DNA of 64,000 bases, from NCBI GenBank assembly GCA_015069495.1, contig SVIN01000007.1, positions 1 to 64,000 of the forward strand, read 5' to 3'. The translations under genes and the position numbers were made by a program. Below, in pieces: positions 4,615-41,534 of the stretch (positions within the stretch are counted from its first letter, which is position 1; each line of letters starts with the position of its first letter). This stretch comes from Clostridiales bacterium (GTDB taxonomy: Bacteria; Bacillota; Clostridia; Christensenellales; Borkfalkiaceae). The notes below the pieces were generated by a model, which did no database searches, was not told the DNA's origin, and worked only from the letters and a program-made list of their open reading frames with translations.

Positions 4615-4873
4615 GTGAATTGCCTAACGGCGTGAATTGGCGATGCCGTGAATTGCACCACAGCGCGTGAATTGCGTTGCAAAGCAACGCGTTATTGAAA
4701 TAATAGCCACAACGCAACGCGAAGCGTTGCAATTCACGAAAACCAAGCTGAGCTTGGAGGCAGTAAGGTGTGTTTTCATGCGTTTTTGCAGGAGATTTCG
4801 CGCATTCACGAAAATATGGTTTTCAATTCACGTTGCAGAGCAACAATTCACGACCGCGTAGCGGTCAATTCAC
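4615..4873. repeat. Mini-hairpin array A (GTGAATT linkers)
   Basis: Fills the pcrA-ligA gap. Forward units are GTGAATT plus a mini-hairpin: GCC-taac-GGC (4622-4631), GGC-gat-GCC (4639-4647), an imperfect GCACCACAGCGC, and GCGTTGC-aaa-GCAACGC (4674-4690). A core GTTATTG..AATAATAGCCACAAC follows, then reversed units: a hairpin GCAACGC-gaa-GCGTTGC followed by AATTCAC, then GTTGC-aga-GCAAC and GACCGC-gta-GCGGTC each followed by AATTCAC. A GCAGTAA element (4741-4808) is embedded. Open reading frames here are artefacts. Confidence 0.85.
4741..4808 (+). repeat. GCAGTAA element, copy 1
   Basis: Starts with the hairpin CCAAGC-tga-GCTTGG, then AGGCAGTAAGGTGTGTTTTC, and ends TTTCGCGCATTCAC. The same layout recurs after rlmN (17144-17208) and twice in the leuC-ilvD gap. 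Confidence 0.6.
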
Positions 4874-4888
4874 TCTTAAGGAGTAACC

Positions 4889-6832
4889 ATGAACAGAAAA
4901 AGAGAACTTGTAGACATTCTCAATAAATGGGCGCACGAATATTACGTGTTAGATAATCCCACGGTATCGGACAAAGAATACGACGATTTGTATGACGAAT
5001 TGCGCCGATTGGAAGAGGAAAGCGGTGAGGTATACCCCGATAGTCCGACGAGACGGGTAGGAGGTGAGCCCATCAAAGGGTTTGAAAAGCATACTCATAT
5101 CGCGCGCTTATTCAGCTTGGATAAGGCGGTTTCTGCAGAGGAATTAACCGCGTTTTTGACCCGAGTACAGAAGCTTGCCGATGGCAAGCCGTGTGATTAC
5201 ACCGTGGAATACAAATTCGACGGTTTGACCGTGTGTTTGACCTATGACAAGGGGCAGTTCGTGCGCGCGACTACGCGCGGTAACGGTACGGTGGGCGAAG
5301 ACGTAACGGCGCAGGTTTTGACCATTCGCTCCTTCCCTTTAAAAATCAATTATCAAGGCACGTTGGAGGTGCGCGGTGAAGCGGTCATTCGCTTGTCCGT
5401 GTTGGATGCGTACAACCAAACGGCGGCGGAACCTTTGAAAAATGCGCGCAACGCAGTGGCGGGCGCAATCCGTAATTTAGACCCCAAAGTAACCGAAACA
5501 CGTAAGCCTGATATTTACTTCTACGACGTCAATTATATCTCGGACGGGGCACCCATGTCTCAAACGAACGCTCATGATTTCCTCATGCAAGAGGGATTCA
5601 AGGTGTTCCCATACTTCCGTGTGTGCCATACGGCAGAAGAGGTTTCCGCGGCGATTGCGGAGATTGAAGTGGAACGTAAAGCCTTGGACGTTTTGACGGA
5701 TGGCGCGGTCATTAAATTAAACGATGCCGAACTTCGCGAGGAGTTGGGTTTTACCGATAAATTCCCCCGTTGGGCGCTCGCGTACAAGTTCGAGGCGGAA
5801 GAAGTGACAACCTTGTTGAAAGAGGTGATTTGGCAGGTGGGCAGAACGGGAAAATTGACCCCGCTTGCCTTGCTTGACCCTGTGGAATTGGGGGGTGCGA
5901 CCGTATCGCGCGCAACTTTGAACAATTATGGCGACATAGTGCGTAAAGACGTGAAACTCGGTTCGCGTGTGCTTGTGCGTCGTTCCAATGAAGTTATCCC
6001 CGAAATTTTGGGGGCGACGGAACATTACGAACATAGTTCCGAGGTGGAAAAACCGACCGTTTGTCCTGCTTGCGGACAGGAGTTGGTAGAAAACGGCGCG
6101 CATTTGTTCTGCCCGAATAAGGGTTGTACACCGCGCATCGTGGCAATGTTAGATCATTACGCAAGTAAAAATGCGATGAATATCGACGGTTTTTCCGAGA
6201 GTACCGCTTTGCAGTTGAATGAACAGAAAAACGTGACGAAATTTTCCGATTTATACCGTTTGACAGCGGAAGATTTGGCGGACTTGGAAGGGTTCAAGGA
6301 TAAGAAAATCAAAAACCTTTTGACCGCGATTGAGAAGAGCAAGACCCCTACCATGGATGCGTTCATTTACGCAATCGGTATCGGCGGGGTGGGCAGAGTG
6401 GCGGCTAAAGACCTCGCGGCTCGATTCCAAACCATGGACAATTTAAAGGCGGCAACCTTGGAGGATTTGTTGGCTTTGGAAAACGTGGGGGAGATCACAG
6501 CAAAGGCGATTTTGGATTACTTTACCGATGAAGATAACCTTGCCGAATTGACCGCTTTGACCGAAGCAGGGGTTACGCCCGTGTGGTCGAACGAGAAAAA
6601 GGAAGGGATTTTCTCGGGGGAATCGGTGGTGCTGACGGGTACGCTGACCCATTTTAAGCGCAGTGAAGCGCAGAAATTGATTGAAGAGCGGGGCGGAGTG
6701 TGTCAATCTTCCGTCACAGCGAAAACCACGTTGGTGTTGGCGGGTGAAGAAGCGGGCAGTAAGCTTGCCAAGGCGCAGAAATTGGGGATTCGTATCATCG
6801 ATGAAGCGACTTTTCAAGATATGTTGCAATAA
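4889..6832 (+). CDS. ligA: NAD-dependent DNA ligase LigA
   Basis: 647 residues, normal for LigA; seals nicks with NAD+ in replication and repair. The N-terminal Ia domain starts KRELVDILNKWAHEYYVLDNPTVSDKEYDDL. The adenylated lysine is K109 in the KFDG motif. A Cys4 zinc finger (C392, C395, C408, C413), helix-hairpin-helix repeats (about 430-560) and a C-terminal BRCT domain (about 570-647) follow in the usual order. TAAGGAG gives a good ribosome-binding site before ATG 4889. It is separated from pcrA by a 276 bp repeat-filled gap; pcrA-ligA order is common in Firmicutes. Confidence 0.97.
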   Translation: MNRKRELVDILNKWAHEYYVLDNPTVSDKEYDDLYDELRRLEEESGEVYPDSPTRRVGGEPIKGFEKHTHIARLFSLDKAVSAEELTAFLTRVQKLADGKPCDYTVEYKFDGLTVCLTYDKGQFVRATTRGNGTVGEDVTAQVLTIRSFPLKINYQGTLEVRGEAVIRLSVLDAYNQTAAEPLKNARNAVAGAIRNLDPKVTETRKPDIYFYDVNYISDGAPMSQTNAHDFLMQEGFKVFPYFRVCHTAEEVSAAIAEIEVERKALDVLTDGAVIKLNDAELREELGFTDKFPRWALAYKFEAEEVTTLLKEVIWQVGRTGKLTPLALLDPVELGGATVSRATLNNYGDIVRKDVKLGSRVLVRRSNEVIPEILGATEHYEHSSEVEKPTVCPACGQELVENGAHLFCPNKGCTPRIVAMLDHYASKNAMNIDGFSESTALQLNEQKNVTKFSDLYRLTAEDLADLEGFKDKKIKNLLTAIEKSKTPTMDAFIYAIGIGGVGRVAAKDLAARFQTMDNLKAATLEDLLALENVGEITAKAILDYFTDEDNLAELTALTEAGVTPVWSNEKKEGIFSGESVVLTGTLTHFKRSEAQKLIEERGGVCQSSVTAKTTLVLAGEEAGSKLAKAQKLGIRIIDEATFQDMLQ

Positions 6833-6838
6833 GAAAAA

Positions 6839-6863
6839 GGGCCGAAAATTTCGGTCCTTTTTT
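6839..6863 (+). terminator. ligA terminator
   Basis: GGGCCGAAA-a-TTTCGGTCC stem (6839-6857) followed by six Ts. Confidence 0.85.
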
Positions 6864-6878
6864 CGTGAGTGCTCCTGT

Positions 6879-7451
6879 TTATTTGGCGGTGAAACCAATA
6901 CAATTTTTAATGATGAAAATTAATTGGTTGATTTCCGTTTCACAATCAAGCTCTATCCATTGGTTCACAATGGCGGAAACTCCGCCTGTGAAAAATGCCA
7001 AGTTGTAAATTTTTTCCGTTTCCTGCGTTAGAAATTGGGAAATGGCGGGGTAGAAGATTTCATCATACATTTTTTGATACGTTTGTTTTGCGTGGAACAA
7101 GTGGGGTTTTTGATGGATTAACTGAAAAACCCGTTTGTTGCGTTTTACAAAGGTAAGATAGGCATGCAATAACTCGTCCGTCAATAAAAACGCATCCTCT
7201 TTGCAAGTGATGTTCGTTGGCGGTTTTATCTTAAAAGAGTCGGTAAATTGTTTGTTGATATTTTCTATCGTTTCTTCTAACAATTCATCCACGCTGTCAT
7301 AATGCAGGTAAAAGGTGGAACGGTTCACCCCTGCTTTTCTTGTGATTTCGGTGACGGTAATAAATTCGAAATCCTTTTTTTCCAGTAAGGCTAAAAGAGC
7401 TGAATTCATCAGTTCTGCCGTATAAAAATATTTACTCTCGTTATTTTTCAT
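6879..7451 (-). CDS. TetR/AcrR family transcriptional regulator
   Basis: 190 residues. The N-terminal TetR helix-turn-helix is clear (FITVTEITRKAGVNRSTFYLHY, about residues 30-51), followed by a helical ligand domain without recognisable specificity; the C-terminal part resembles the TetR_C_7/DhaS-like group. It is the last gene of a three-gene leftward operon and overlaps the end of the membrane-protein gene by 11 bp, so it probably senses a compound tied to those proteins or represses its own operon. Confidence 0.85.
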   Translation of the reverse strand: MKNNESKYFYTAELMNSALLALLEKKDFEFITVTEITRKAGVNRSTFYLHYDSVDELLEETIENINKQFTDSFKIKPPTNITCKEDAFLLTDELLHAYLTFVKRNKRVFQLIHQKPHLFHAKQTYQKMYDEIFYPAISQFLTQETEKIYNLAFFTGGVSAIVNQWIELDCETEINQLIFIIKNCIGFTAK

Positions 7452-8091
7452 GATTTAACACCTTCAAATCTAAGTATGCCCTACATATCATATACACCGC
7501 GCAAACGGTAATGAAACAAGCCACGGCAATGCATAAGATGGGAAATAGGGTATTTCGCAAGCGAGCGGTATCTTCGCCAAAGGTGGTCAACATGGTATTG
7601 GTCAATGGCAGTAAAGATACGCTGGCGGAAATCAAAGAAAATACTTTTGCGCAGGAAAATAGATAATCCTGTCGTTTGAAAAACTTCACACAACCGATAA
7701 TGGCAACGGTTAACGCTGAAAAGGTGTAAGTAGCTAAGGCAATCACGGTGATTTCATGCTGTTTGGTTTGTGGATTGTGAAACAGCAAAAGAAAGCTTAT
7801 GGTGGAAATGGCAAGGTTGATTACCAATAAAAAAACACCGCAGGTAAATAGGGTATAGATTTTGGCGCGTTGCATTGTCGTAAAGCATATTTGCGTAAAG
7901 AGGAAACATCGTGCGGTTGCCAATAAAATATAATATATCGCTAATGATAAAAACCAGTTAGAGGAAGATAGTTGGCTTACGGTAAACAAAAAACACGCGT
8001 AAGCGAGGTTGCAGATGAACGATAAAGCCAAAAACAGCTTTACACGAAACATTGTGTTTTCTTTTATTTGTTCAAAAAGGTTATGAAGCAT
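7441..8091 (-). CDS. Polytopic membrane protein, unknown function
   Basis: 216 residues with about six hydrophobic segments (for example LFLALSFICNLAYACFLFTV, LALATYTFSALTVAIIGCV). No recognisable motif. ATG at 8091 lies 3 bp after the stop of the upstream gene, so translation is probably coupled; a second ATG 13 codons in is an alternative start, with only a weak purine-rich upstream sequence. It sits between a small two-helix membrane protein and a TetR regulator. Confidence 0.65.
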   Translation of the reverse strand: MLHNLFEQIKENTMFRVKLFLALSFICNLAYACFLFTVSQLSSSNWFLSLAIYYILLATARCFLFTQICFTTMQRAKIYTLFTCGVFLLVINLAISTISFLLLFHNPQTKQHEITVIALATYTFSALTVAIIGCVKFFKRQDYLFSCAKVFSLISASVSLLPLTNTMLTTFGEDTARLRNTLFPILCIAVACFITVCAVYMICRAYLDLKVLNHEK

Positions 8092-8094
8092 GGC

Positions 8095-8451
8095 TTAGTT
8101 TTCGTTAGCAATTTCATTGGCAAGGCGTAAAATATCCGACGCGTATTTATTTTTACCCTTCGTCAATATTTTTTTATACAAAGGATAATTGATGCATGCG
8201 CCTAAGATACCGATACAGCCGATGGCGATGCCCAACGCCATCGTTAGGGTGTTTCCCGCGCCGATAACGCCCATGCATAAAGACATGCCCGTTCCAAGGA
8301 TAAGGCTGGAGGTGATACCAAATACCAACGAAAAAATCATGGCAGGATTTTTTGCCTTTGCGTCTAATTTTTTCAACGCTTTCACTTTCGAAGTTTGTTT
8401 GGGTGCGTATTGGTTTGCAATTTGCTCTGCGTAAATTTTATCTGTGTTCAT
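8095..8451 (-). CDS. Small two-helix membrane protein, unknown function
   Basis: 118 residues. A charged N-terminus rich in Lys (about 1-35) is followed by two hydrophobic helices (MIFSLVFGITSSLILGTGMS and TLTMALGIAIGCIGILGACI) and a basic C-terminal tail. The start is supported by AAAGGAG nine bases before ATG. First gene of the leftward operon; a -10 TATAAT (minus strand, 8499-8504) lies about 50 bp upstream, but I see no convincing -35. I do not recognise a function. Confidence 0.7.
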   Translation of the reverse strand: MNTDKIYAEQIANQYAPKQTSKVKALKKLDAKAKNPAMIFSLVFGITSSLILGTGMSLCMGVIGAGNTLTMALGIAIGCIGILGACINYPLYKKILTKGKNKYASDILRLANEIANEN

Positions 8452-8669
8452 TGTTTTTTCTCCTTTAATGAAAGTTTTTTATTTGCTCAAGCAAGAGAAT
8501 TATACCATAGAAAAAGTGGAAAACGCTACAACAAAAAAAGAGGAAAATGTCGATTTTTAAAATGGGAGGCGGAAATAGACAATGCGGGTAAAAAGTGTCG
8601 AATTGAATATCTCTTTTATAATTTATTATAAAAAATATAAAAAAGTAAGAAAAAGTTGGCGGTGGGGGC

Positions 8670-8698
8670 TTGAAATTTTTGAAAAGGTGTGCTATAAT
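8670..8698 (+). promoter_or_regulatory. Promoter of the yicC-gmk-rpoZ block
   Basis: -35 TTGAAA (8670-8675), 17 bp spacer, -10 TATAAT (8693-8698). The rest of the 8452-8743 gap is AT-rich and shows nothing else I can name. Confidence 0.8.
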
Positions 8699-8743
8699 GG
8701 TACGGCTTAGAATTTGGCAGTACGAAAGAGAGGATAAAAACCT

Positions 8744-9619
8744 ATGCTGAGTATGACGGGTTATGGAAAAGGCGAATACGCAGAAGGCGGTTTGGAACTG
8801 ACCTGCGAAATCAAAACGGTGAACAACCGTTATTTGGACGTTTCGATTAAAGCACCCCGCATTTTCGCGGCGTACGAAGACGTTGTGAGAAATACCATCA
8901 GGAAGAAAATGACACGCGGGCACGCGGACGTATATATTTCCCTGAAAGATAAGCGTGAAAAGGAAAGTGCGTTGACCACCGATTTGGCATTGGCGGCATC
9001 CTACGTGGCGGCGGCAAAGGCTTTGCGTGAAGCATTCCCCGATTTAACCGACGACGTAACCCTTTCTTCGGTGCTTCGTTATCCCGAAGTGTTAAAGCAG
9101 GAAGATTCGGTGAGTCTTGACGAGGAAATGACCCATGCTTTGGACGTTGCATTGAATACTGCGCTGGACAACTTGAATGAAATGCGCCTTGTGGAAGGTG
9201 AAAAACTCAAGGCGGATATGCTTGCGAGGGTGGCAACGATTGAGGGCTTGGTCAACGAAGTGCAAACCCGTGCGCCGTTGGTTGCGGCGGAATACCGCGA
9301 GAAATTGACGGCTCGCGTGAAGGACTATCTCGCGGACGTGAAGATGGACGAGGGGAGATTGCTGACAGAAGTTGCCGTATTTACGGATAAGAGCAATATC
9401 GATGAGGAATTGACGAGATTGCACTCTCACATCGAACAATTCAGAAGCATTGCGGAAGAAGGGATTGTGGGCAGAAAGTTGGATTTCTTGATTCAAGAAT
9501 TTAACCGCGAAGCCAACACGACCTGTTCTAAAAGTAACGACGTAACGATTACCCGCGCAGGGCTTGCGTTGAAAAACGAAATCGAAAAGATTCGCGAACA
9601 AGTGCAAAATATTGAGTGA
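8744..9619 (+). CDS. yicC: YicC family endoribonuclease
   Basis: 291 residues, the usual YicC length. Starts MLSMTGYG, the family signature, with NNRYLD soon after, and ends with the conserved region around FLIQEFNREANTTCSKSND. YicC proteins are reported to act as endoribonucleases. AGAGAGG gives a ribosome-binding site. It is the first gene of the conserved yicC-gmk-rpoZ-priA group; remA, often between yicC and gmk in Bacilli and Clostridia, is absent. The stop is directly followed by gmk. Confidence 0.92.
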   Translation: MLSMTGYGKGEYAEGGLELTCEIKTVNNRYLDVSIKAPRIFAAYEDVVRNTIRKKMTRGHADVYISLKDKREKESALTTDLALAASYVAAAKALREAFPDLTDDVTLSSVLRYPEVLKQEDSVSLDEEMTHALDVALNTALDNLNEMRLVEGEKLKADMLARVATIEGLVNEVQTRAPLVAAEYREKLTARVKDYLADVKMDEGRLLTEVAVFTDKSNIDEELTRLHSHIEQFRSIAEEGIVGRKLDFLIQEFNREANTTCSKSNDVTITRAGLALKNEIEKIREQVQNIE

Positions 9620-9627
9620 GGAAGCGT

Positions 9628-10176
9628 ATGAAACATGTATTGATGGCGGTGTCAGGGCCTTCGGGTGTTGGGAAAGGCACGATTGTGAAAACCATTTTAC
9701 AGCGTCGCGAAGACGTGGTGGAATCCGTTTCCTGTACCACCCGCGAACCGCGCGAAGGAGAAGTGAACGGTAAACACTACTTTTTCATTTCCAAGGAAGA
9801 ATTTTTGCGCCGTATCGATGAAAACGACTTTTTAGAATACGATGAACATTTTGGCAATTACTACGGTACGCCGAAATCGTTTGTGGAAGAGACCTTAAAA
9901 ACCAAATCGGTGATTATGGAAATCGACGTAGTGGGCGCGTTGAACGCGAAGAAATTTTTCCCCGACTGTGTGTTGGTGATGATTTTACCCCCGTCTTTGG
10001 AAGAATTGAAAAACCGTTTGGTGGGGCGCGGTACGGAAGGTAAGGACGAAATTGAAAACCGTCTTTCCCGTCTTGAGTATGAAGTATCGCAAAAAGACAA
10101 ATATGATTATCTTATCGTTAATGATGATTTGGAAACCGCGATTGCGGACGTTTGCAAAATTATCGACGGTGAATAA
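9628..10176 (+). CDS. gmk: Guanylate kinase
   Basis: 182 residues. Phosphorylates GMP to GDP with ATP. P-loop GPSGVGKGT near the N-terminus, GMP-binding SCTTREPREGEVNGKHYFF, and the lid R-G-T-E motif (VGRGTEGKDEIENRLSR). ATG 9628 is chosen because TGAGG lies six bases upstream; a GTG four codons earlier overlaps the yicC stop. Translation is likely coupled to yicC. A 77 bp TIR element sits 7 bp after its stop codon. Confidence 0.95.
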   Translation: MKHVLMAVSGPSGVGKGTIVKTILQRREDVVESVSCTTREPREGEVNGKHYFFISKEEFLRRIDENDFLEYDEHFGNYYGTPKSFVEETLKTKSVIMEIDVVGALNAKKFFPDCVLVMILPPSLEELKNRLVGRGTEGKDEIENRLSRLEYEVSQKDKYDYLIVNDDLETAIADVCKIIDGE

Positions 10177-10182
10177 TAGATA

Positions 10183-10259
10183 GGCTCTGTCACTTCACCT
10201 GGTTGATTTTTCTCGTCATTGCTTGAATGCTAAAATCAACCATTCTCTGTGCCACAGCC
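10183..10259. mobile_element. 77 bp non-autonomous TIR element (ISL3-like ends), copy 1
   Basis: Ends are GGCTCTGTCAC..GGTTGATTTT on the left and the complement of GGCTGTGGCAC..GGTTGATTTT on the right. It is nearly the ends of the 453 bp element at 25305-25757 (opposite orientation) joined together, so it is an internal deletion derivative. The flanking 8-mers AATAGATA and TAAAGATA match at 6 of 8 positions. The ends and an 8 bp duplication recall ISL3-family elements; no transposase is present. Confidence 0.7.
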
Positions 10260-10318
10260 TAAAGATAAATAAAAAAATTAAACAAGAAAAAAATACATAG
10301 TAAAAGGAGTATAGAGAT

Positions 10319-10540
10319 ATGATTAATGAACCTTCTGTTGACGTAATGATCAGAAAATTGGGTACGGAGGAGGATCCGATCAGCCGTTACGCGCTTTGCA
10401 CCATTGCAGCAAAACGCGCGCGCCAAATCATTGAAACGGAAAGAAACCTTGGTATCCGTACCACTACGGGTAAAGACAAGGAATTGTTGTCTGCTTGCAA
10501 GGATATTGCAGACGGTAAAGTAGTTGTTGCAAAAGACTAA
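10319..10540 (+). CDS. rpoZ: DNA-directed RNA polymerase subunit omega
   Basis: 73 residues, typical for Gram-positive omega. The conserved YALCTIAAKRARQI segment (Y-x-L-x-x-x-A-x-K-R-A-R-Q-I) folds on the C-terminal tail of beta-prime and helps assemble polymerase. A strong AAAAGGAG lies upstream. The gap from gmk is 142 bp because of the TIR element insertion; the gene is 55 bp before priA. Confidence 0.93.
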   Translation: MINEPSVDVMIRKLGTEEDPISRYALCTIAAKRARQIIETERNLGIRTTTGKDKELLSACKDIADGKVVVAKD

Positions 10541-10595
10541 ACGTGGTTGCCTCGGTATTTGCCGAGGCAATTATTCACAAGGAAAGAGGTAGGGC

Positions 10596-12770
10596 ATGAT
10601 AGCGGAAGTAATCGTCGATATCGCGGCGAGTGAAACGGACAGAATATACGATTATCTCTGCGGCGAGGATACCATCGTCGGCAGTCGGGTCCGCGCGCCT
10701 TTTGGCGGGAAAATCGTACCTGGGTTCGTCATGCGCTTGAAAGAGAAATCGGATGTGCCCTTGGAACGCTTGAAAAAGGTATTGCCCTGCGGGGATGAAT
10801 TGCCCGCATTAAATGCCGAATGTCTTGCTTTGGCTGAGAAATTAACGGCGCGCTACCGTGTGCCGAAGGCGTTGACTTTGCGGTTGTTTTTGCCTGCGGA
10901 AATGCGCACGGGGAAGGTGCGGGAACTTTACCGTAACTATGCCGTGTTAAGCGTACCTTTGGAAGATATGAAACTCGCCAAAACAGCGAAAAACCAATGG
11001 GGTGCGGCGGCCTATCTTGCGGAAAACGGAAAAACCGATTGCGCATACCTCAACAACGTATACCCTGGCGGGGTATCGGCTTTGGAAAAGAAAGGGTACG
11101 TAACCGTCACGAAAGAACAGCTGTTGCGCGACCCGTACAAAACGGTGACAGCGGAAAAGGTGGACCGCACCTTGACCTTCGATCAACAGCGCGCGGTGGA
11201 TACCGTGTGGAATGATGGGCGAACCGTACAGCTTTTACACGGTGTAACGGGCAGTGGAAAAACCGAGGTGTATTTGACCTTGATTGCCAAATGTTTGCGC
11301 GAGGGGAAGAGTTCGATTTTTCTTGTGCCTGAAATTTCTTTAACCCCGCAAATGCTGTCACAGCTTCGCGCGCGGTTTGGGAAGAATGCGGCGATTTTGC
11401 ACAGCGGTTTGTCCGCGGGGGAACGTTTTGATGAGTGGTGGCGCTTGCGTACGGGCGAGGCGAAAATCGCCATCGGCGCGCGTAGTGCGATATTCGCGCC
11501 CTTGGAAAATATCGGGGTGATTATCGTAGATGAGGAACACGATTCCAGTTATTGCAGTGAAACGGCACCCCGATACAACACCTTTGACGTGGCGTTGTTG
11601 CGTGCGAAGAGAAACGGTTGCAAATTGGTTTTGGGGAGTGCGACGCCTTCGGTAGATACCTACAAGCGGGCGCAAGAGGGAGAATTTTCCTTGATTCGCA
11701 TGGATAAGCGTATCAACAAACGCCCCTTACCCGAAATTATCATTGCGGATATGCGACGTGAAGTCCGCCGAGGAAACAATTCTGCTTTTTCAGGTGCATT
11801 GAAAGAGGAGATTGAAAAGTGTCTGGCTGAGGACAAACAAGCGATTTTGTTTTTGAATCGGCGCGGGTATTCGCAAACGGTGATTTGTAAGGAATGCGGG
11901 TACGTGGCAAAGTGCGAGGCGTGCGACGTGTCCTTGACCTATCACCGCGACGAAGGGTGTTTGAAGTGCCATTACTGTGGGATGAAATACAACATGCTGT
12001 CCGCTTGTCCCGATTGCGGGGGGAAGAAACTTTCCTACGCGGGTACGGGTACACAAAGGATTGCGGCGGATTTGGAAAAGCTGTATCCCACTGCGCGGAT
12101 TTTGCGTATGGATAACGACACGACCAGCGGGAAAGAGGGACATTATAAAATTCTTAAAACGTTTGCAGAAAAGAAGGCGGATATCTTGGTCGGAACGCAG
12201 ATGATTGCCAAAGGGCATGATTTTCCTGCGGTGACGTTGGTGGGGATTTTGGATGCGGATATGAGTCTGCATTTCTCCGATTACCGAAGCGGGGAGCGCA
12301 CCTTCCAGCTGATTACGCAGGTAGCAGGACGAAGCGGGCGCGCGGAAGAGCAAGGCAAGGTGGTTTTACAGACGTTTGACCCTGAAAATGAAGTGTTGCG
12401 GTTTGCGACGAGATATGATTACGAGGGATTTTACCAAAACGAAGTATCTTTGCGCGCGGCGATGGCTTTCCCGCCGTTTTCGAAAATCGTGCGGGTAATG
12501 GTGACGGGCGAGGATGATAAAAAATGTATTGAGGCGCTTAGGGAAGTGTACGTGGAATTGGAAAGGCTGTACACGGAAAACCCTGACAAGTTCTTGTTCT
12601 TTAATAAGATGCGTGCGCCGATTAAGCGGATACAAAATAAGTTCCGTTATCAGATATTGATGCGGCTTTGCGATACCTCGATTTTACCGCAGATATACGG
12701 GATTTGCGCGGAAGCGCGGAACCGTGATGCGTTGGTGAGTGTAGAAGAAAACCCGTCGAATCTGAGCTAA
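10596..12770 (+). CDS. priA: Primosomal replication restart helicase PriA
   Basis: 724 residues. Recognises abandoned forks and reloads the replicative helicase. N-terminal DNA-binding domain (MIAEVIVDIAASETDRIYDY), Walker [16 protein letters not shown] box, and a zinc-binding region with the CxxC..CxxC pattern (CKECG, CEAC, CHYCG, CPDCGG), then helicase motifs V/VI (VTLVGILDADMSLHFSDYRSGER, QVAGRSGR). GAAAGAGGTAGGGC precedes ATG. coaBC, usually just upstream in this block, is missing. Its stop codon lies inside the first hairpin of array B. Confidence 0.96.
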   Translation: MIAEVIVDIAASETDRIYDYLCGEDTIVGSRVRAPFGGKIVPGFVMRLKEKSDVPLERLKKVLPCGDELPALNAECLALAEKLTARYRVPKALTLRLFLPAEMRTGKVRELYRNYAVLSVPLEDMKLAKTAKNQWGAAAYLAENGKTDCAYLNNVYPGGVSALEKKGYVTVTKEQLLRDPYKTVTAEKVDRTLTFDQQRAVDTVWNDGRTVQLLHGVTGSGKTEVYLTLIAKCLREGKSSIFLVPEISLTPQMLSQLRARFGKNAAILHSGLSAGERFDEWWRLRTGEAKIAIGARSAIFAPLENIGVIIVDEEHDSSYCSETAPRYNTFDVALLRAKRNGCKLVLGSATPSVDTYKRAQEGEFSLIRMDKRINKRPLPEIIIADMRREVRRGNNSAFSGALKEEIEKCLAEDKQAILFLNRRGYSQTVICKECGYVAKCEACDVSLTYHRDEGCLKCHYCGMKYNMLSACPDCGGKKLSYAGTGTQRIAADLEKLYPTARILRMDNDTTSGKEGHYKILKTFAEKKADILVGTQMIAKGHDFPAVTLVGILDADMSLHFSDYRSGERTFQLITQVAGRSGRAEEQGKVVLQTFDPENEVLRFATRYDYEGFYQNEVSLRAAMAFPPFSKIVRVMVTGEDDKKCIEALREVYVELERLYTENPDKFLFFNKMRAPIKRIQNKFRYQILMRLCDTSILPQIYGICAEARNRDALVSVEENPSNLS

Positions 12771-12900
12771 ACCGCAAGGTTTAGCGGTGAAATTGCACCT
12801 ATGGTGCAGTGAAATTGTGGCGTTGCCACAGTGAAATTGTATCCTCGATACAGTGAAATTTTTTACCTGCGGTAAAAAGTTGTGGCTGTGATTTAATAAG
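12767..12900 (+). repeat. Mini-hairpin array B (GTGAAATT linkers)
   Basis: Begins with CTAAACC-gcaa-GGTTTAG (12767-12784), which contains the priA stop codon. Then four units of GTGAAATT plus a hairpin plus A: GCACC-tat-GGTGC (12795), GTGGC-gtt-GCCAC (12817), GTATC-ctc-GATAC (12839) and TTTTACC-tgc-GGTAAAA (12861). The first three have 5 bp perfect stems and 3 nt loops at exact 22 bp periodicity. A degenerate core, GTTGTGGCTGTGATTTAATAA, follows. Confidence 0.9.
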
Positions 12901-13398: not shown

Positions 13399-13519
13399 TT
13401 AAGCGCGGATATACTTCGTAATACTGCGTTACAGATGCGCTTTTCTCGCTCACGTACGTCTTGTACGCTCCCGTCGAAAATGCTCCTGCGCCTTGTCTTA
13501 CTCGTATCTGCGCGCTTAA
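13399..13519. repeat. TAAGCG element, copy 1 (121 bp, TIR)
   Basis: Ends are TTAAGCGCG (13399-13407) and CGCGCTTAA (13511-13519), perfect 9 bp inverted repeats. Internal features shared with the copies at 35473-35592 and 41839-41960 are ATATACTTCG near the left end, TCACGTACGTCT.TGTACGCTCCCGTCG in the middle and CTCGTATCT near the right end. It starts four bases after the def stop codon. No gene is encoded. Confidence 0.8.
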
Positions 13520-13567
13520 GGGGGCGGACGGATTTCGTGGTATTGTGTTGCAGAGGCGCTTTTTAGA

Positions 13568-13774
13568 GTGAATTGAAGCGCAAGCGCTTCGTGAATTGGC
13601 GATGCCGTGAATTGTACCTGCGGTACGTGAATTGCAAGCCAAGGGCTTGCGTTATTGCAGTTATTTATAATAGCCACAACGCAAAATGAAATTTTGCAAT
13701 TCACGACGGTGAAACAGTCAATTCACGAATATACTATATTCAATTCACGCAAAGCAAAAAGCTTTGCAATTCAC
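13568..13774. repeat. Mini-hairpin array C (GTGAATT linkers, symmetrical)
   Basis: Best preserved two-sided array. Four forward units, GTGAATT plus GAAGCG-caag-CGCTTC, GGC-gat-GCC, GTACC-tgc-GGTAC and GCAAGCC-aag-GGCTTGC; then a core GTTATTG..ATAATAGCCACAAC; then four reversed units, each a hairpin followed by AATTCAC: GCAAAAT-gaa-ATTTTGC, GAC..GTC, GAATATA-c-TATATTC and GCAAAGC-aaaaa-GCTTTGC. The def-fmt gap from 13396 to 13800 is almost entirely this array plus the TAAGCG element. Confidence 0.9.
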
Positions 13775-17133: not shown

Positions 17134-17143
17134 CACGGCAAGC

Positions 17144-17208
17144 TGAGCTTGCAGGCAGTAATGTGTCTTATCGTGCGTGTTTGTAGTTGGTTTCGCGCAT
17201 TCACTATC
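17144..17208 (+). repeat. GCAGTAA element, copy 2
   Basis: GCAAGC-tga-GCTTGC hairpin, then AGGCAGTAATGTGTCTTATC, ending TTTCGCGCATTCAC. Close to the copy in array A. It occupies the position where prpC-prkC-rsgA would be expected. Confidence 0.6.
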
Positions 17209-27443: not shown

Positions 27444-27515
27444 AGCGTTTTCTCCTTTGTAAGTTTCTTGATTTATTGTAACATATTTGTATATAAAAGT
27501 CAACCCTTAATTTTT

Positions 27516-27586
27516 CGCGCCACAGGCGTATATCGTACACTATAGGTGTATATCGCGCGCCGTCAGGCGCATATCGCGTTTGCGAT
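27516..27586. repeat. Mini-hairpin array G (TATATCG linkers)
   Basis: CGCC-aca-GGCG, then TATATCG, TACAC-tatag-GTGTA, TATCG, CGCGCC-gtca-GGCGC, ATATCG, CG-ttt-GCG. Short array lying just downstream of the uvrA stop codon when read in the uvrA direction (minus-strand linkers read CGATATA). Confidence 0.7.
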
Positions 27587-35298: not shown

Positions 35299-35306
35299 TG
35301 GATAGC

Positions 35307-35340: not shown

Positions 35341-35365
35341 CTTTATACCTTAATGGATATGGATA

Positions 35366-35453
35366 CGGCTTTGTTGCAGGGAGTGTACATAGACGTACAC
35401 GACCAAACCGCGCGGAAACGCAACGCCGAAATGCGAAGTATATACACGCTTAC
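35366..35453 (-). repeat. TAAGCG element, copy 2 (partial)
   Basis: Reads TAAGCGTGTATATACTTCGC on the minus strand from 35453, with a GTACGTCTATGTACACTCCC core. The distal end is divergent. It is in tandem with copy 3. Confidence 0.65.
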
Positions 35454-35472
35454 CCGATTCAGTACGAAGCTG

Positions 35473-35592
35473 TAAGCGGGTAGATACGAGCAGTTCAAGG
35501 AGCCGCGAGTATGCCGACGGGAGCGTACAGAGACGTACGTGAGCGAGGCACACGGAGCGGCGACGCAGAAATGCGAAGTATATACACGCTTA
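35473..35592 (-). repeat. TAAGCG element, copy 3 (120 bp) ending in the ridA stop codon
   Basis: On the minus strand runs from TAAGCGTGTATATACTTCGC (35592 down) through TCACGTACGTCTCTGTACGC to CTCGTATCTACCCGCTTA (35473). Its first three bases are the TAA stop codon of ridA. Confidence 0.8.
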
Positions 35593-35967
35593 CAAAACAG
35601 CGATGACTTCTACTTCGACCAATACGTTCTTGGGTAAGGTTTTGACGGCTACGCAACTTCTCGCGGGGTTGGTGGTAAAATACTTTGCATATACCCCGTT
35701 AAACGCCGCAAAATCCCCCATGTCCGCCAAAAAACAAGTCGTCTTCACTGCATTTTCAAAGGACGTTCCTGCGGCAGAAAGCACTTCGCCAAGGTTCTTC
35801 ATGACTTGTTCCGCTTGCGCTTCAATCGTGGTTGTTTCCACGTTGCCCGTTGCGGGATTGATGGGGATTTGCCCCGAAGTGAACACCATGTTTCCGCATA
35901 CGATTGCTTGTGAATACGGTCCAATCGCCGCAGGCGCTTTATCAGTTGCTACTTTTTTTAATTCCAT
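35590..35967 (-). CDS. ridA: RidA family reactive enamine/imine deaminase
   Basis: 125 residues from ATG 35967 with AAGGAG upstream. Hydrolyses 2-aminoacrylate and 2-aminocrotonate, the toxic enamines released by PLP-dependent dehydratases. Signatures: AIGPYSQAI, FTSGQIPINP, AGTSFENAVKTTCFL, NPARSCVAVKTLP (catalytic-site Arg) and the VEVEVIAVL end. It follows ilvA by 10 bp, so the enzyme that makes the enamine and the one that clears it are made together. Confidence 0.95.
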   Translation of the reverse strand: MELKKVATDKAPAAIGPYSQAIVCGNMVFTSGQIPINPATGNVETTTIEAQAEQVMKNLGEVLSAAGTSFENAVKTTCFLADMGDFAAFNGVYAKYFTTNPARSCVAVKTLPKNVLVEVEVIAVL

Positions 35968-35977
35968 AATCTTCTCC

Positions 35978-37171
35978 TTATAATAACTTAAATCCAAAAT
36001 CCTTGAGGGCTTGGCGGATGCTGTGGATATGTTCGTAGTTTCGCGTTTCCAACTCTATATGCAAATAACATCCGTTGATATCCGCCGCCTCGTTGGCGCG
36101 TTCATGGTGAACGGAAATCACATTACCGCCCAAATCCGCAATGATGCGGGAAACGTCTTTCAACTGACCGGGTTTATCCTGCAACTCAATGAGGAGTTGA
36201 CAGCTTCTGCCTGACATCAACAAACCGCGCTTAATCACGCGGGATAAAATATTTACGTCGATATTTCCGCCCGATAACAAGCACACTGCTTTTTTGTCGG
36301 TGAGGTCGACTTTTCCAAACATCGCCGCCGCTACCCCGACTGCGCCCGCCCCCTCGGTGACAAGTTTGTGTTTTTCCATCAATGCCAAAATCGCCGCGGA
36401 AATTTCATCTTCCGATACCGTAACAATTTCATCCACGTATTGACGGCAAAGTTCATAGGTCAAGTTCCCAGGTTTTTTCACCGCGATACCGTCTGCAATC
36501 GTGGAAACCGAAGGCAACTCCTCAATTGCACCGTTATCCACAGAATTTTTCATGGATGGCGCGCCAAGGGCTTGCACCCCGTATACTTTGATGTTAGGCT
36601 TGATGGTTTTGAGGGTAAAGGCAATCCCCGAAATCAAACCGCCCCCGCCAATGGGCACAAGAACGGCATCCAAATCGGGCAATTGTTCTATCAGTTCTAA
36701 AGCAATCGTGCCCTGTCCTGCGATAACGTCTTCATCGTTGAAGGGGTGGATAAAGGTATAGCCCATTTCGTCGCGAAGTTGCAATGCCTTTTGGTAAGCA
36801 TCATCGTAAACCCCTTCCACAAGACAAACCTCTGCCCCATAGCTTTTGGTTGCTTCCACCTTGGAAATAGGTGCGCCGTCAGGTAAACAGATGACTGATT
36901 TAATACCATTTTTCTGTGCAGCCAAAGCAACCCCTTGCGCATGGTTCCCCGCAGAGCATGCAATCACGCCGCGTGCCTTTTCCTCTTCGGAAAGCTTTGA
37001 CATTTTATAATATGCACCGCGGACCTTGAACGAACCCGTAATTTGCAGGTTTTCCGTCTTTAAGTACAACTGTGCACCCGCCTTTAATTTGGGCGCGTAA
37101 ATTACGTCCGTCTTACGCGCAACGCCTTTTAATACCTCTTGCGCGCGATATACATTGTCAATGGTCAACAT
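35978..37171 (-). CDS. ilvA: Threonine ammonia-lyase with ACT domain
   Basis: 397 residues. Converts threonine to 2-oxobutanoate, the first step to isoleucine. The PLP lysine lies in GSFKVRGAYYK, the nucleotide-loop in SAGNHAQGVA, and GGGGLISGIA binds the PLP phosphate. One C-terminal ACT domain (about 325-397; IELQDKPGQLKDVSRIIADLGGNV) places it in the short, TdcB-like group. AAGGAAG upstream. Part of leuB-DUF815-ilvA-ridA. Confidence 0.93.
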   Translation of the reverse strand: MLTIDNVYRAQEVLKGVARKTDVIYAPKLKAGAQLYLKTENLQITGSFKVRGAYYKMSKLSEEEKARGVIACSAGNHAQGVALAAQKNGIKSVICLPDGAPISKVEATKSYGAEVCLVEGVYDDAYQKALQLRDEMGYTFIHPFNDEDVIAGQGTIALELIEQLPDLDAVLVPIGGGGLISGIAFTLKTIKPNIKVYGVQALGAPSMKNSVDNGAIEELPSVSTIADGIAVKKPGNLTYELCRQYVDEIVTVSEDEISAAILALMEKHKLVTEGAGAVGVAAAMFGKVDLTDKKAVCLLSGGNIDVNILSRVIKRGLLMSGRSCQLLIELQDKPGQLKDVSRIIADLGGNVISVHHERANEAADINGCYLHIELETRNYEHIHSIRQALKDFGFKLL

Positions 37172-37198
37172 AATATATTCTTCCTTGTTGTAATTTTT

Positions 37199-38386
37199 TT
37201 ATCTAAGACTGTTGATAAACTGTTCCGCCGCACGTGCCGAGCGATTGCCTTTACGAAGTGCAAAAGCTTCCGCTTGTACTTCCAAATCCTTTTCGTCAAT
37301 CGTAATCTCGAAACGCTTGGCAAGTTCTTTGACAATGTTCAAGTACAACTGCTTGTTGGGTTTGGAGAACAGCACGGTCAAACCGAAACGTTCGGACAAA
37401 GACAGCGTTTCCTGCAAGGTATCGTTGCGGTGTACGTCATCGCCGTCGCGGTCCGAAAAACTTTCCTTGATGATGTGACGGCGGTTGCTGGTTGCATAAA
37501 TCACCGCATTGTCCGCCATCGCACTTGCCGAACCTTCCAACGCCGCCTTTAACATGCTGAAATTGTCGTCGTTTTGGTTAAAGGATAAGTCATCGATAAA
37601 AATGATGAATTTCAGCGGATTACCATTGATTTTCGCCATCACTTCGGGCAAATAGCGAAGCTGGTCTTTGCGGAGCTCAATCAAGCGCACCCCTTCGTTG
37701 AAAAAGGCGTTTGCCACCGCTTTGACGGTGGACGATTTTCCCGCACCCGCATCCCCGCAAAGCAACGTATTTGCCGCGGGTCTGCCCTCGATAAACGCGC
37801 GGGTGTTATCCACTACTTTCGCACGCTCTTCTTCATACCCGACAAATTGAGAAAGCTGAATTTGATCGGCGCTGGCAATCCCTTCGATTTCGCGTTCGTC
37901 CGTCAAACGGAACATCACGTTGGCGGAGAAAATTCCATACCCGTATTTGTCTACGTTTTGCAAACGTTCCGCATACAAGGCACCCATGTCTGCGTTGAAC
38001 GAGCTAAACGCAGGCAATTCCACCGCCGCCACGTCCATATCTAACGCAAAATCTTTCACCGTCAAGGATGCAAAAACGGACAAAATTTCCAATTCCCGTT
38101 TCGCTGAACGCAGGATATTTTCATCCAGCGTTTTCTTCAACGCCGTACCTTTGATATACACGTTTTCATCTTCAAAAACAATCTTTTTAACCATTTCGGT
38201 CAAGTTCCCGCCGCCCTTATACAAAGCGGCAACAAAATCCGCATACGCATCAATACGTTCTATTTCACCGCATTCTTTCGTGTATACGTAATTGCCGAAC
38301 CGTTCGAACAGTTCGGTCTGCAATACACCGCGGAATACTGCGCATGAAGCCAAGCCACGGAAAATACTGGTCATATCTCTTTTCAT
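37199..38386 (-). CDS. DUF815 family AAA+ ATPase
   Basis: 395 residues. About 190 N-terminal residues of unknown fold, then a DUF815-type P-loop ATPase: Walker A CGDAGAGKSS, RLIELRKDQLRYLPEV, Walker B FIIFIDDLSF, sensor YATSNRRHIIKESF and a C-terminal lid (GNRSARAAEQFINSL). Molecular role unknown; I know it as a widely conserved uncharacterised ATPase. Start two bases after the leuB stop, so it is translationally coupled to leucine biosynthesis here. Confidence 0.85.
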   Translation of the reverse strand: MKRDMTSIFRGLASCAVFRGVLQTELFERFGNYVYTKECGEIERIDAYADFVAALYKGGGNLTEMVKKIVFEDENVYIKGTALKKTLDENILRSAKRELEILSVFASLTVKDFALDMDVAAVELPAFSSFNADMGALYAERLQNVDKYGYGIFSANVMFRLTDEREIEGIASADQIQLSQFVGYEEERAKVVDNTRAFIEGRPAANTLLCGDAGAGKSSTVKAVANAFFNEGVRLIELRKDQLRYLPEVMAKINGNPLKFIIFIDDLSFNQNDDNFSMLKAALEGSASAMADNAVIYATSNRRHIIKESFSDRDGDDVHRNDTLQETLSLSERFGLTVLFSKPNKQLYLNIVKELAKRFEITIDEKDLEVQAEAFALRKGNRSARAAEQFINSLR

Positions 38387-38388
38387 AA

Positions 38389-39462
38389 TCAGTTTAACGC
38401 CTCGATAATTTTATCTGTCATTTCCATTGTGGAAAGCGCGGGCGCGCCGTGGGCAAGGTCTGCCGTACGATAACCCGCTTCCAATACTTTATCCACAGCC
38501 AACACGATGGCGTTGGATGCTTCTGTTTCATTGAATGCATACAGCAACATCATCGCCGCCGATAAAACGGTCGCGATGGGGTTGGCTTTGTTTTGACCTG
38601 CGATATCGGGCGCGGAGCCGTGGATAGGTTCGTACAGGCCGCGCGTTCCTTCGTTTAAGGACGCCGAAGGCAACATACCGATAGAACCCGTGATTTGCGA
38701 AGCTTCGTCGGAAAGAATATCCCCGAACATGTTGCTGGTCACGATGACGTCAAATTGAGACGGATTGCGTACAAGTTGCATTGCCGCGTTATCTACCAGC
38801 ATATCGCTAACTTCCACGTCGGGGTATTCCACCGCGATTTCATGGACGATTTTACGCCATAAGCGGGAAGTTTCCAAGACGTTCGCTTTGTCGATGCTGG
38901 TTAATTTTTTGCGGCGTTTTCTTGCCGTTTCGAAGGCTACACGCACGATACGTTCGATTTCCATACGGCTGTAACTTTCGGTGTCGTAGGCTTCTTCCCC
39001 GTATTTTCCCTCACGGTAACCGCGTTCGCCGAAATAAATACCGCCCGTCAATTCACGTACAATCATGATATCGAACCCATTCGCCACGATATCCTCACGC
39101 AAAGGGCATTCCCCTTTCAATGCAGGGTAAAGTTTCGCAGGACGTAAGTTGGTGAACAGCCCCATCGCCTCGCGAATCCCCAAGAGCGCCTTTTCAGGGC
39201 GGATATTACCAGGTAAAGTATCCCACTTCGGACCGCCGACCGCACCCAACAGTACACTGTCGGATGCAAGACAGCCTGCCACCGTTTCGTCGGGCAGGGG
39301 CTTTCCGCAAACATCAATCGCCACCCCGCCGATGAGGTAGGGCGTAAAAGTGAAACTAAGGTTGTACTTTTGACCAACCGCTTCCAATACGCGGACTGCG
39401 CTGTCTACGATTTCAGGACCGATACCGTCCCCTTTTAATAAACCGATTTTATATGTTTTCAT
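38389..39462 (-). CDS. leuB: 3-isopropylmalate dehydrogenase
   Basis: 357 residues. Oxidative decarboxylation of 3-isopropylmalate with NAD+. [18 protein letters not shown] start, [26 protein letters not shown] (catalytic Lys), [25 protein letters not shown] and [19 protein letters not shown] are all present. AGGAG upstream. A 190 bp gap from leuD holds mini-hairpin array D. Confidence 0.97.
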
Positions 39463-39487
39463 AATGTTTCTCCTGGCAATTATATAA

Positions 39488-39657
39488 GTGAATTGCGCTG
39501 TTTGCGCGCGAATTGCAACGCTATGCGTTGCATTTTTGGCTATTATTCAATAACGACGGCAAAGCCGTCAATTCACGAAAACGTCTGTTTTTAATTCACT
39601 GAGCGTGAGCGAAAATTCACGAAGCATTTACGCTTCAATTCACTATATACGCGCTTA
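39488..39657. repeat. Mini-hairpin array D joined to a TAAGCG end
   Basis: GTGAATT plus GCGC-tgttt-GCGC, GCGAATT plus GCAACGC-tat-GCGTTGC, core GGCTATTATTCAATAAC (39538-39554), then hairpins followed by AATTCAC: GACGGC-aaa-GCCGTC, GAAAACGTCTGTTTT, a degenerate unit and GAAGC-attta-cGCTTC. The right edge TATATACGCGCTTA has the TAAGCG-element end, whose TAA is the leuD stop codon. Confidence 0.85.
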
Positions 39658-40149
39658 CCTTATATTCCCACGTTTAATAGAGGCAATTAATCCCCCATTG
39701 TTGATAATTGTTTGAATAAACGCAGGGAAGGGTTGGGTGGTAAATTGCTTACCCGTGGTACGGTTGTAGATAATACCGTTATCCAAATCCGCTTCCACAA
39801 TATCCCCTTCGGAAATTCCGTCTACCGCTTCGTCGCATTCAACAATCGCAAGCCCGATGTTGATGGAATTGCGGTAGAAAATACGCGCAAAGCTACGCGC
39901 AATGACAAGGGAAATACCGCTTTCCTTGATGGCAATCGGCGCGTGTTCACGAGAAGAACCGCAACCGAAATTGTAGCCCGCAATCATGATATCCCCCGCT
40001 TGGACTTTGTTGACAAAGTTCTTGTCAATATCTTCCATGCAATGGGACGCCAATTCTTTTTTATCAATGGTATTGAGGTAACGCGCGGGAATGATTACGT
40101 CCGTATCCACGTTATCACCGTATTTGATTGCTTTTCCGTTGAATATCAT
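39655..40149 (-). CDS. leuD: 3-isopropylmalate dehydratase small subunit
   Basis: 164 residues, the short LeuD type that pairs with a roughly 420-residue LeuC. Swivel domain with [16 protein letters not shown] and [22 protein letters not shown] inside the leuC end serves as ribosome-binding site and ATG overlaps the leuC TGA (ATGA), so subunits are produced in step. Confidence 0.96.
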
Positions 40150-41411
40150 TTCATCACCTCCGCAGGGTCCGCAATTTTACCCGCAATTGCACTTGCCGCC
40201 GCTACCGTAGGCGAAGCCAAATACACTTCACTCTCCACGTGCCCCATACGGCCGACAAAGTTACGGTTGGTCGTTGCCACGGCGCGTTCCCCCGCCGCCA
40301 AAATACCCATATACCCGCCTAAGCAAGGTCCGCAGGTCGGGGTGGAAACGATACAGCCTGCTTCGATGAAAATTTTCAGAAGCCCATTTTCCATCGCTTT
40401 CATATAGATATCCTGCGTAGCAGGGATGATGATGGCGCGGACGCGCTTTGCAACTTTTTTACCCTTGAAAATTTCCGCCGCTTCCGCGAGGTCTTTGTAT
40501 TGACCGTTGGTACACGAACCGATCACGACTTGATCGATTTTGATATCCCCAATTTCGTCAAAGGTTTTCGTGTTTTCAGGTAAGTGCGGGAAGGCTACGG
40601 TGGATTTGATTTCGGATAAATCGATTTCATAGGTCTCGTCATATACCGCGTCTTCGTCCGCTTTGTAGATGGGGAAATCGCGGTCGCTGCGTTCTTTTAC
40701 GTAGGCAATCGTCTGTTCGTCGACTTCGAAAATCCCGTTTTTCGCGCCCGCCTCGATTGCCATATTGGAAATGGTCAAACGGTCGAAAATAGTCAAGGAT
40801 TGCACGCCTTCACCCGTGAATTCCATGGACTTGTATAATGCACCGTCCACACCGATTTTACCGATGATGTGTAAAATGACGTCCTTGCCCGATACGTATT
40901 TGTTGAGTTTGCCTTTGAGGATAAACTTAATGGCGGAAGGCACTTTAAACCAAGCCTTGCCCGTCGCCATACCGCACGCCATGTCGGTAGAACCCACGCC
41001 CGTAGAGAACGCACCAAGTGCTCCGTACGTGCAGGTGTGAGAGTCTGCGCCGATAACTACGTCACCAGGCACAACCAAGCCTTTTTCGGGCAATAATGCA
41101 TGTTCAATACCCATTTGACCGACGTCGTAGAAATGGGTTACTTCGTGCTTATCGCAAAAATCACGGCACATTTTACATTGCGTTGCCGCTTTGATGTCTT
41201 TGTTCGGAGCAAAGTGGTCCATAACCATGGTGACTTTGTCCTTATCGTAAACGGCTGTTGCACCGATTTTTTCAAATTCCTTAATCGCTACGGGCGACGT
41301 GATATCGTTGCCCAAAACACGGTCGAGGTTGACCAAAATCAATTGGCCTGCCTCTACCTTGTCCAATCCCGCGTGCGCCGCGAGGATTTTTTGTGTCATT
41401 GTCATGGACAT
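40146..41411 (-). CDS. leuC: 3-isopropylmalate dehydratase large subunit
   Basis: 421 residues of the aconitase superfamily; isomerises 2- to 3-isopropylmalate. Three 4Fe-4S cysteines lie in the IGSCTNGQ region and in [44 protein letters not shown] is the substrate-binding segment. AATAGGAG upstream. It begins after the 546 bp repeat-filled gap from ilvD. Confidence 0.97.
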
Positions 41412-41433
41412 AGTTTACTCCTATTGATATATG

Positions 41434-41534
41434 GTGAATTGCCTAACGGCGTGAATCACCCTTCGGGCGTGAATCGCGCTGTTTGCGCGTAAATTGCAAC
41501 GCTATGCGTTGCGTTGTGGTAATTATTCAATAAC
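41434..41534 (+). repeat. Mini-hairpin array E (GTGAATT linkers)
   Basis: GTGAATT plus GCC-taac-GGC (identical to the first unit of array A), GTGAATC plus a CCCttCGGG hairpin, GTGAATC plus GCGC-tgttt-GCGC (identical to array D), GTAAATT plus GCAACGC-tat-GCGTTGC (identical to array D), then the core GTTGTGGTAATTATTCAATA. The right half is missing. Confidence 0.85.

Follow-up and report, generated by a model that had tools for sequence, protein, structure and literature searches.

Among the closest described relatives of the DNA arrays considered here are the rRNA intervening sequences that encode proteins of the 23S-rRNA-IVP/S23 family (PF05635; hereafter IVP). In Coxiella, tandem heptamers lie upstream of the S23 open reading frame (ORF), their number varies between strains, and an older proposal holds such intervening sequences to be mobile (excerpts of PMC4990558). 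The proteins are still called functionally uncharacterised in passages of PMC11270868 and PMC4990558. A second relative is Gut-1 (Rfam RF01706), which Weinberg et al. (2010) listed as a noncoding RNA of the human gut only (according to the listing in PMC2864571). The arrays themselves lie in a stretch of 64,000 nucleotides, referred to below as the window, from a Clostridiales bacterium of the Borkfalkiaceae (contig SVIN01000007.1, positions 1 to 64,000; assembly GCA_015069495.1, 1.74 Mb in 50 contigs, completeness 76%). They consist of short linkers alternating with mini-hairpins and are probably non-autonomous copies, similar to miniature inverted-repeat transposable elements (MITEs), of small mobile elements that, when complete, have a single IVP gene (PF05635, TIGR02436).

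Comparison with described repeats

MITEs and repetitive extragenic palindromes with their bacterial interspersed mosaic elements (REP/BIME) resemble the arrays as short, partly palindromic, non-coding repeats in intergenic gaps. The arrays differ in having free stem sequence, a fixed linker and no tie to a transposase. Of the features by which MITEs are recognised, related longer copies exist, and no target duplication was found. The earlier note on this DNA set clustered regularly interspaced short palindromic repeats (CRISPR) aside, and rightly so, as a CRISPR array has repeats of about 20-40 nt and non-palindromic spacers, whereas the window arrays have linkers of 7-8 nt and palindromic intervals.

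With the rRNA intervening sequences, which RNase III excises from the transcript of the gene that they interrupt, the elements share the protein family and ends able to pair. They differ in lying outside rRNA genes (the window copies sit between protein genes), in carrying hairpins between heptamers, and in having many compact copies per genome. Among the open-access titles and abstracts surveyed, none described hairpin or heptamer arms around free-standing IVP genes; subscription literature was outside this scope, so absence from print is not established.

Anatomy of the window arrays

The regular form of the element in this genome spans about 180-210 bp: a short core is flanked by four GTGAATT linkers on the left and four AATTCAC linkers on the right, all alternating with hairpins. 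Because a fourfold GTGAATT arm faces a fourfold AATTCAC arm across the core, the arms are complementary. The window contains the following copies and parts.

4615..4873, + strand: two-armed compact element between a pcrA-like helicase gene and ligA; four GTGAATT linkers on the left
4691-4713, + strand: core of the 4615..4873 element, GTTATTG..CCACAAC
About 4744-4808: another repeat, which breaks the right arm (AATTCAC linkers) of the 4615..4873 element
12769..12900, + strand: one-armed array between priA and def; four GTGAAATT linkers, then core GTTGTGG at 12879
12785-12864: Rfam Gut-1 match inside the 12769..12900 array
13568..13774, + strand: two-armed compact element between def and fmt; four GTGAATT and four AATTCAC linkers, core at 13651-13680
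About 27495..27576, no strand assigned: short array with the other linker class of this genome, ATATCGC/ATATCGT; absent from the earlier note
39488..39643, - strand: two-armed compact element; degenerate GTGAATT arm, reversed core, four AATTCAC linkers
41434..41534, - strand: one-armed array; GTGAATT and variants, core GTTGTGGTAATTATTCAATAAC at 41513-41534

All five arrays of the earlier note are present where it had placed them, and its description needs some adjustment. The arrays at 12767 and 41434 are one-armed. GTGAATT linkers were claimed for all five gaps, yet those at 12787-12860 read GTGAAATT and the left arm at 39488 is degenerate. The array at 4615-4873 is interrupted by the other repeat. 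A linker search over the whole genome returned 70 + 65 matches for the pattern GTGAATTG-N6..24-GTGAATT and 0 for the reversed control; over the genus, an 8-nt-linker pattern proved too strict to be useful. Tandem one-armed copies at L060:3780-4009, with GTGAATTT linkers and a GTTGTGG core, resemble the 12787 array. The hairpin GGGCGGTC was considered as a part of the element and rejected, as only some of its 12 sites lie beside arms.

Complete elements and the IVP gene

A longer copy at L062:6254-6953 (contig C40 of the same genome) contains GTTGTGG after its left arm, then an ORF of 117 aa on the opposite strand and finally a complementary right arm. The ORF matches PF05635 with 93 bits (23S-rRNA-IVP/S23) and TIGR02436, "four helix bundle protein". 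Its linker class is that of the window copies, which lack a PF05635 gene and would be derivatives of such a gene-carrying form. A profile of 20 IVP sequences matches PDB entries 2rld (3.5e-39) and 2gsc (1.6e-5). Among 41 relatives, 15 have a PF05635 match (14 above the cut-off), as do 61 of 247 genomes of the order (57 above it).

Association with arrays was assessed in two sets of IVP loci. The first comprises the 111 better-scoring places, not all, from two PF05635 searches (L083 and L094 not included); the second comprises 80 loci from a scan of named genomes with the 20-sequence profile, many of these sequences having been picked for their arrays. In the first set, hairpin arrays lie within 700 bp of the IVP gene at 43 of 111 loci, against 0/96 control windows of the same size on the same contigs and 0/111 shuffles. 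The second set gave 54/80 against 4/128 control windows, a rate that is not a blind estimate because the profile favoured array-bearing IVPs; here 50 loci have an array 5' of the gene and 9 have one 3'. The sets are not fully independent because seven loci occur twice, six of them across both sets. After removal, 184 loci remain. Hairpin arrays lie within 700 bp at 93 of these, and either an array or a run of tandem heptamers, as defined below, at 128, compared with 11 of 218 control windows. A 7-mer present at least three times on one side, with its reverse complement at least three times on the other, was found at 19/109 IVP loci and 0/193 controls, whereas the direct-repeat version gave 2/109 and 1/193.

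The sequences show that an arm typically consists of four copies of an element-specific 7-8-nt unit and that the opposite arm has its reverse complement. A hairpin, usually perfect, separates successive units in this lineage. In complete copies the IVP gene lies either between the two arms or on the 3' side of the pair, and compact copies have only a short core in its place.

Linkers as heptamer units

Linkers of relatives include GTGAAAT, GTGAAGTT, GTTATATT, GCGATAT, ATGATAT, GCTAAAT and GTGATGT, among others. Where two arrays are adjacent, their linkers are reverse complements of each other in 31 of 37 pairs, compared with 213 of 1332 pairings (16%) between different loci. Of 31 two-armed elements, 17 have exactly 4 + 4 linkers.

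The nature of the linker can be read from IVP loci that lack hairpin arrays. A heptamer run was defined as a 5-mer that occurs three or more times with a period of exactly 7, and the upstream test covered 400 bp 5' of the gene. Such runs precede 31 of 91 array-less IVP genes against 11 of 684 control windows, while periods 5, 6, 8 and 9 gave 0, 0, 1 and 0 of 91. IVP loci with arrays have none (0/95). When both flanks are considered, runs occur at 36 of 95 array-less loci, and a reverse-complement run accompanies them at 31 of the 36 (90/1102 control pairings).

Plasmids were sampled as 16 of the 25 records found with IVP (Nostoc, other cyanobacteria, Bernardetia, Treponema, Monoglobus and Chlorohelix). 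Their IVP loci have heptamer arms in 12 of 16 cases against 5 of 128 windows, and hairpin arrays in 0 of 16. At L347, L350 and L352, four heptamers, the gene and four reverse-complement heptamers follow one another. Because array-less IVP genes often have plain complementary tandem heptamers, also in other phyla, the linker can be understood as a heptamer with hairpins inserted between copies. The window arrays are therefore heptamer arms with hairpins between units. The same likeness extends to the Coxiella intervening sequence, with its tandem heptamers upstream of the ORF (in the excerpts of PMC4990558).

Plasmid IVP genes lie, for example, between hsdS and hsdR or between cas2 and cas1. 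The latter placement was observed for heptamer-armed IVP genes of two cyanobacterial plasmids (L355, L356). A figure legend on CRISPR-linked proteins names the 23S rRNA IVP (legend in PMC10910872), and the cas2-cas1 placement may explain this naming.

Cyanobacterial heptanucleotide repeats (short tandemly repeated repetitive sequences, STRR) are known as tandem repeats. They resemble the arms as tandem heptamers, and Nostoc with its relatives accounts for 11 of the 25 IVP plasmid records, with heptamer-armed IVP genes. They differ in being known as tandem repeats, whereas a tie to IVP elements would be a proposal of this study.

Hairpins and predicted fold

Segments between successive exact GTGAATT or AATTCAC linkers were counted in the window and 15 further stretches of the same genome (n = 128, 100 distinct). 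A perfect palindrome was required to pair from the segment ends, with a stem of at least 3 Watson-Crick pairs and a loop of at most 6 nt. This applies to 109 of the 128 segments, the remaining 19 being imperfect, and to 23 of 2560 (0.9%) shuffled segments. Among 635 stem pairs counted from the segment ends, 610 are Watson-Crick, 6 G.T, 7 A.C and 12 other. The 128 segments contain 57 different 5' halves. These counts bear out the earlier statements that the mini-hairpins are nearly always self-complementary, more so than shuffled sequence, and that pairing is kept while stem sequence changes. What counts would be the shape of the hairpin and the sequence of the linker, which leaves the stems free to vary. 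Comparison of near-duplicate copies gave 2 compensated, 7 one-sided G.T, 2 one-sided A.C and 101 unchanged pairs, so direct compensated changes are few.

Perfect hairpins could also arise as a mutational by-product and without any element, if intrastrand template switching kept them perfect and slippage amplified them. The almost wholly Watson-Crick stems fit this explanation, as do an amplified two-hairpin unit at L062:6254-6460 and inner blocks inverted between related copies. It leaves the complementary arms, the 4 + 4 number, the linker class of each element and the IVP gene unexplained, and we regard it as very unlikely. Template switching or slippage may well act on top of an element. 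The L062:16240 element and the L063 elements have common outer hairpins and an inverted inner block, with mixed-strand matches. Local rearrangement, in the form of inverted inner blocks and an amplified unit, also acts on the elements.

Of 55 possible pairs of a left with a right linker, the predicted folds form 45 as RNA and 47 as DNA. At least two rungs are predicted in 12 of 14 two-armed elements, and the 13568 element folds better than all 200 shuffles both as RNA and as DNA. The fishbone fold of the element is a prediction.

Gut-1 as one arm

The earlier note knew of no named element with this design. The design is partly named, because one window array is Rfam Gut-1: the covariance model scores 57.4 bits at 12785-12864, above the gathering threshold of 50 bits. 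At 13566-13638 it scores 30.4 bits, below gathering, and the other window arrays do not reach gathering. The match to a described RNA family that the note had named as grounds for refutation is accordingly partial. Gut-1 and the arrays have hairpins, three in Gut-1, joined by UGAAAU linkers in common, whereas Gut-1, described as a single arm acting as a free noncoding RNA, comes without the second arm, the IVP gene and the other linker classes.

Taken as annotated, each array would be a gene for a structured noncoding RNA acting in trans, which the Rfam model and the noncoding RNA listing (as given in PMC2864571) support. An excess of G.T over A.C pairs in stems read in the IVP sense points the same way (18 to 6, p 0.023; 13 to 4 by locus). 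This symmetric recount replaces a first count of 32 to 6, which was biased by a detector preference for G.T. In this genome G.T and A.C are balanced at 6 and 7, and G.T is rare among the 635 pairs. The model takes no account of the two complementary arms or the IVP gene that most copies possess; array gene contexts differ, and neighbouring species lack arrays at the same gap. A trans-acting RNA is consequently very improbable as an account of the arrays.

Gut-1 matches at E <= 0.001 occur in 20 of the 41 searched genomes of genus and order (11 over the cut-off) and in 1 of 14 control genomes, below the cut-off. Across the 41 genomes the association of Gut-1 with IVP has p 9e-4, uncorrected for kinship. 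This association was recounted because genome G005, first scored IVP-positive, has only an Avd-like hit.

Signs of movement

Gap contents were compared between congeners, and arrays are present or absent at the same gap. Between def and fmt, the window has a compact copy, G068 and G006 have an IVP element whose arms are of the GTGAAGTT type, and G008, G024 and G067 have other compact copies; of the 28 loci measured (of 30), 12 have at most 25 bp there. Between pcrA and ligA, where 28 of 30 loci were read, the two nearest relatives (G068 and G061) have 10 and 15 bp, and 10 of the 28 loci have at most 16 bp.

These gaps also bear on the arrays as conserved regulatory leaders or terminators, that is, cis-acting RNA structures of neighbouring genes. 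Complete fishbones are found 5' of IVP genes, and many copies lie between operon genes just before a ribosome-binding site, both of which count in favour of such a role. The same-gene gaps of only 10-25 bp in many relatives (the 12/28 and 10/28 above) speak against it, as do linkers that differ between species beside the same gene. A regulatory role is, in our estimation, quite improbable.

The IVP tree (FastTree) covers 190 of 191 loci; L084, with an internal stop, was omitted. Linker class follows this tree (18 changes over 95 rows; shuffled mean 62.8, minimum 56), whereas the tRNA site does not (45 changes over 63 rows and 17 tRNA kinds; shuffled mean 49.5, minimum 43). At 38/111 and 26/80 loci of the two sets, the 500 bp 5' of the IVP gene contain the end of a tRNA gene, where 0.06 and 0.05 per window are expected, and 63 of the 64 pairs are codirectional. 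In 8 of 14 compared pairs, IVP blocks 77-87% identical sit at tRNA genes of different kinds. The alignments start in the 3' part of the tRNA or in the hairpin after it, with one exception starting before the tRNA, and stop 2-42 bp beyond where the IVP match ends, in most cases at the stop codon. A tRNA 3'-end duplication downstream of IVP was rejected, as it was found with at least 12 exact nucleotides in 3 of 63 loci and with 17 of 22 in 0 of 63. Inserts of about 120-260 bp between tRNA and fishbone were observed at L136, L155, L164, L257, L270 and L283; their last 20-24 nt duplicate the tRNA 3' end exactly, as would be expected if a further class of small elements integrated at this site.

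In the tRNA-seated branch the IVP stop codon often overlaps a start codon (AAGGAG..ATGA). An ATGA-coupled ORF of at least 60 aa follows 25 of 190 IVP genes and 31 of 873 other ORFs. The Pfam families matched by 24 of these coupled ORFs downstream of IVP include NUDIX, ASCH, nucleotidyltransferase, HAD, tRNA methyltransferase, and DUF or immunity families. A cassette-like overlap of the IVP stop with the ATG of changing downstream genes was observed at L139, L154, L166, L254, L257, L259, L268, L271, L276, L277, L279, L288 and L290.

Candidate enzymes, partners and carriers

Reverse transcriptase genes occur in only 8 of 41 genomes, with none in this genome or in G000, G033 and G039. Y1_Tnp genes occur in 12 of 41, one of them in this genome (C34:72159), and are absent from the element-rich G033, G036 and G039. 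Both enzymes are disfavoured as the source of mobility on account of this distribution. No Pfam family recurs in more than 4 of 99 nearest neighbours over 59 scanned IVP loci. Because reverse transcriptase and Y1 are patchy and no other family recurs beside the scanned IVP genes, the chemistry of movement would come from IVP or the host. Carriage by viruses was rejected, with 9 IVP loci in viral contigs (arrays in 2, one near-certain) and 2 phage records.

The Y1 distribution also bears on the possibility that the arrays are REP/BIME-type repeats mobilised by a Y1 (RAYT) transposase. That explanation is favoured by the intergenic position of palindromes that share conserved linkers, and by the Y1_Tnp gene of this genome. 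Besides the absence of Y1_Tnp from element-rich genomes, stem sequence is not conserved and the arms hold IVP rather than Y1, which makes it extremely unlikely.

The Avd protein of diversity-generating retroelements has a four-helix fold homologous to that of IVP, according to a statement in PMC10053308. Such a retroelement differs in needing a reverse transcriptase, which this genome and most of the 41 lack. At L083 (G005:C10), an Avd-like PF05635 relative lies about 430 bp from a reverse transcriptase match with no array in its flanks, and is probably part of a diversity-generating retroelement.

Other repeats and features nearby

The repeat that breaks the 4615 element is dispersed, with copies at window 4744-4808, 17138-17205 and 41592-41700 and in L051, L055 and L058; it has a hairpin, for example CCAAGCTGAGCTTGG, and then GGCAGTAAGGTGTCTT. 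A different dispersed repeat, some 120 bp long, surrounds a CGTACG hairpin at 13400-13518 and 35452-35592 (77% identical between both) and recurs in several other stretches and species gaps. A T-box leader at 48867-49105 (- strand) and a tRNA gene at 61676-61757 (+ strand) are ordinary.

Proposed mechanism and meaning

The arrays are best read as the ends of IVP elements, that is, of transposase-less and apparently mobile elements. We infer that one strand would fold as a ladder in which linkers form the rungs and hairpins project on both sides from four-way junctions. An IVP oligomer may recognise the repeated heptamers and help the element to move, and could serve compact copies in trans. 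Cutting and joining would be performed by IVP or by host enzymes, and elements would settle in operon gaps and 3' of tRNA genes.

Several observations weigh against this account. No known DNA-cutting domain appears among the IVP family names returned. No insertion event was seen within a strain, and no target duplication was found. By the detectors used, 56 of 184 IVP loci have neither arrays nor heptamer runs, and 8 of the 20 Gut-1-positive genomes have no strict IVP (7 without a PF05635 match, G005 with an Avd-like one only), several of these assemblies being incomplete. Within the genus the Gut-1/IVP association is not significant (p 0.088). Repeats may also be misassembled, as most data come from metagenome assemblies. 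Linkers also fail to compensate position by position within elements: 560 matches were counted against a permutation mean of 564 (4968 of 5000 permutations at or above), in a test that included spurious end linkers at 2 mismatches. A stricter test on the 18 equal-armed of 31 two-armed elements gave 505 of 518 Watson-Crick pairs in nested and 507 in parallel order. The rungs are therefore not proved by covariation. Since linkers inside one element are nearly identical, a trans-acting reader of linkers fits at least as well as base pairing alone.

A wider proposal is tentative, and we would sooner expect it to fail than to hold in full. In it, IVP/S23 would be a bacteria-wide class of mobile elements without transposase, with about four element-specific heptamers and their reverse complements as ends that an IVP oligomer reads. 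Clostridial arms with a hairpin per heptamer would form the four-way-junction ladder as the substrate of movement. Gut-1, the rRNA intervening sequences and perhaps the cyanobacterial heptanucleotide repeats would be parts of this class, and the tRNA-seated branch would end in a Shine-Dalgarno/ATGA junction expressing changing downstream genes.

The rule that heptamers on one side recur as reverse complements on the opposite side places an IVP protein in a recognisable element, and Rfam Gut-1 can be re-read as one arm of it. The arms offer defined ligands for IVP binding and mobility tests. As such, the element shows what an unexplained four-helix protein, first known from rRNA-gene insertions, travels with.

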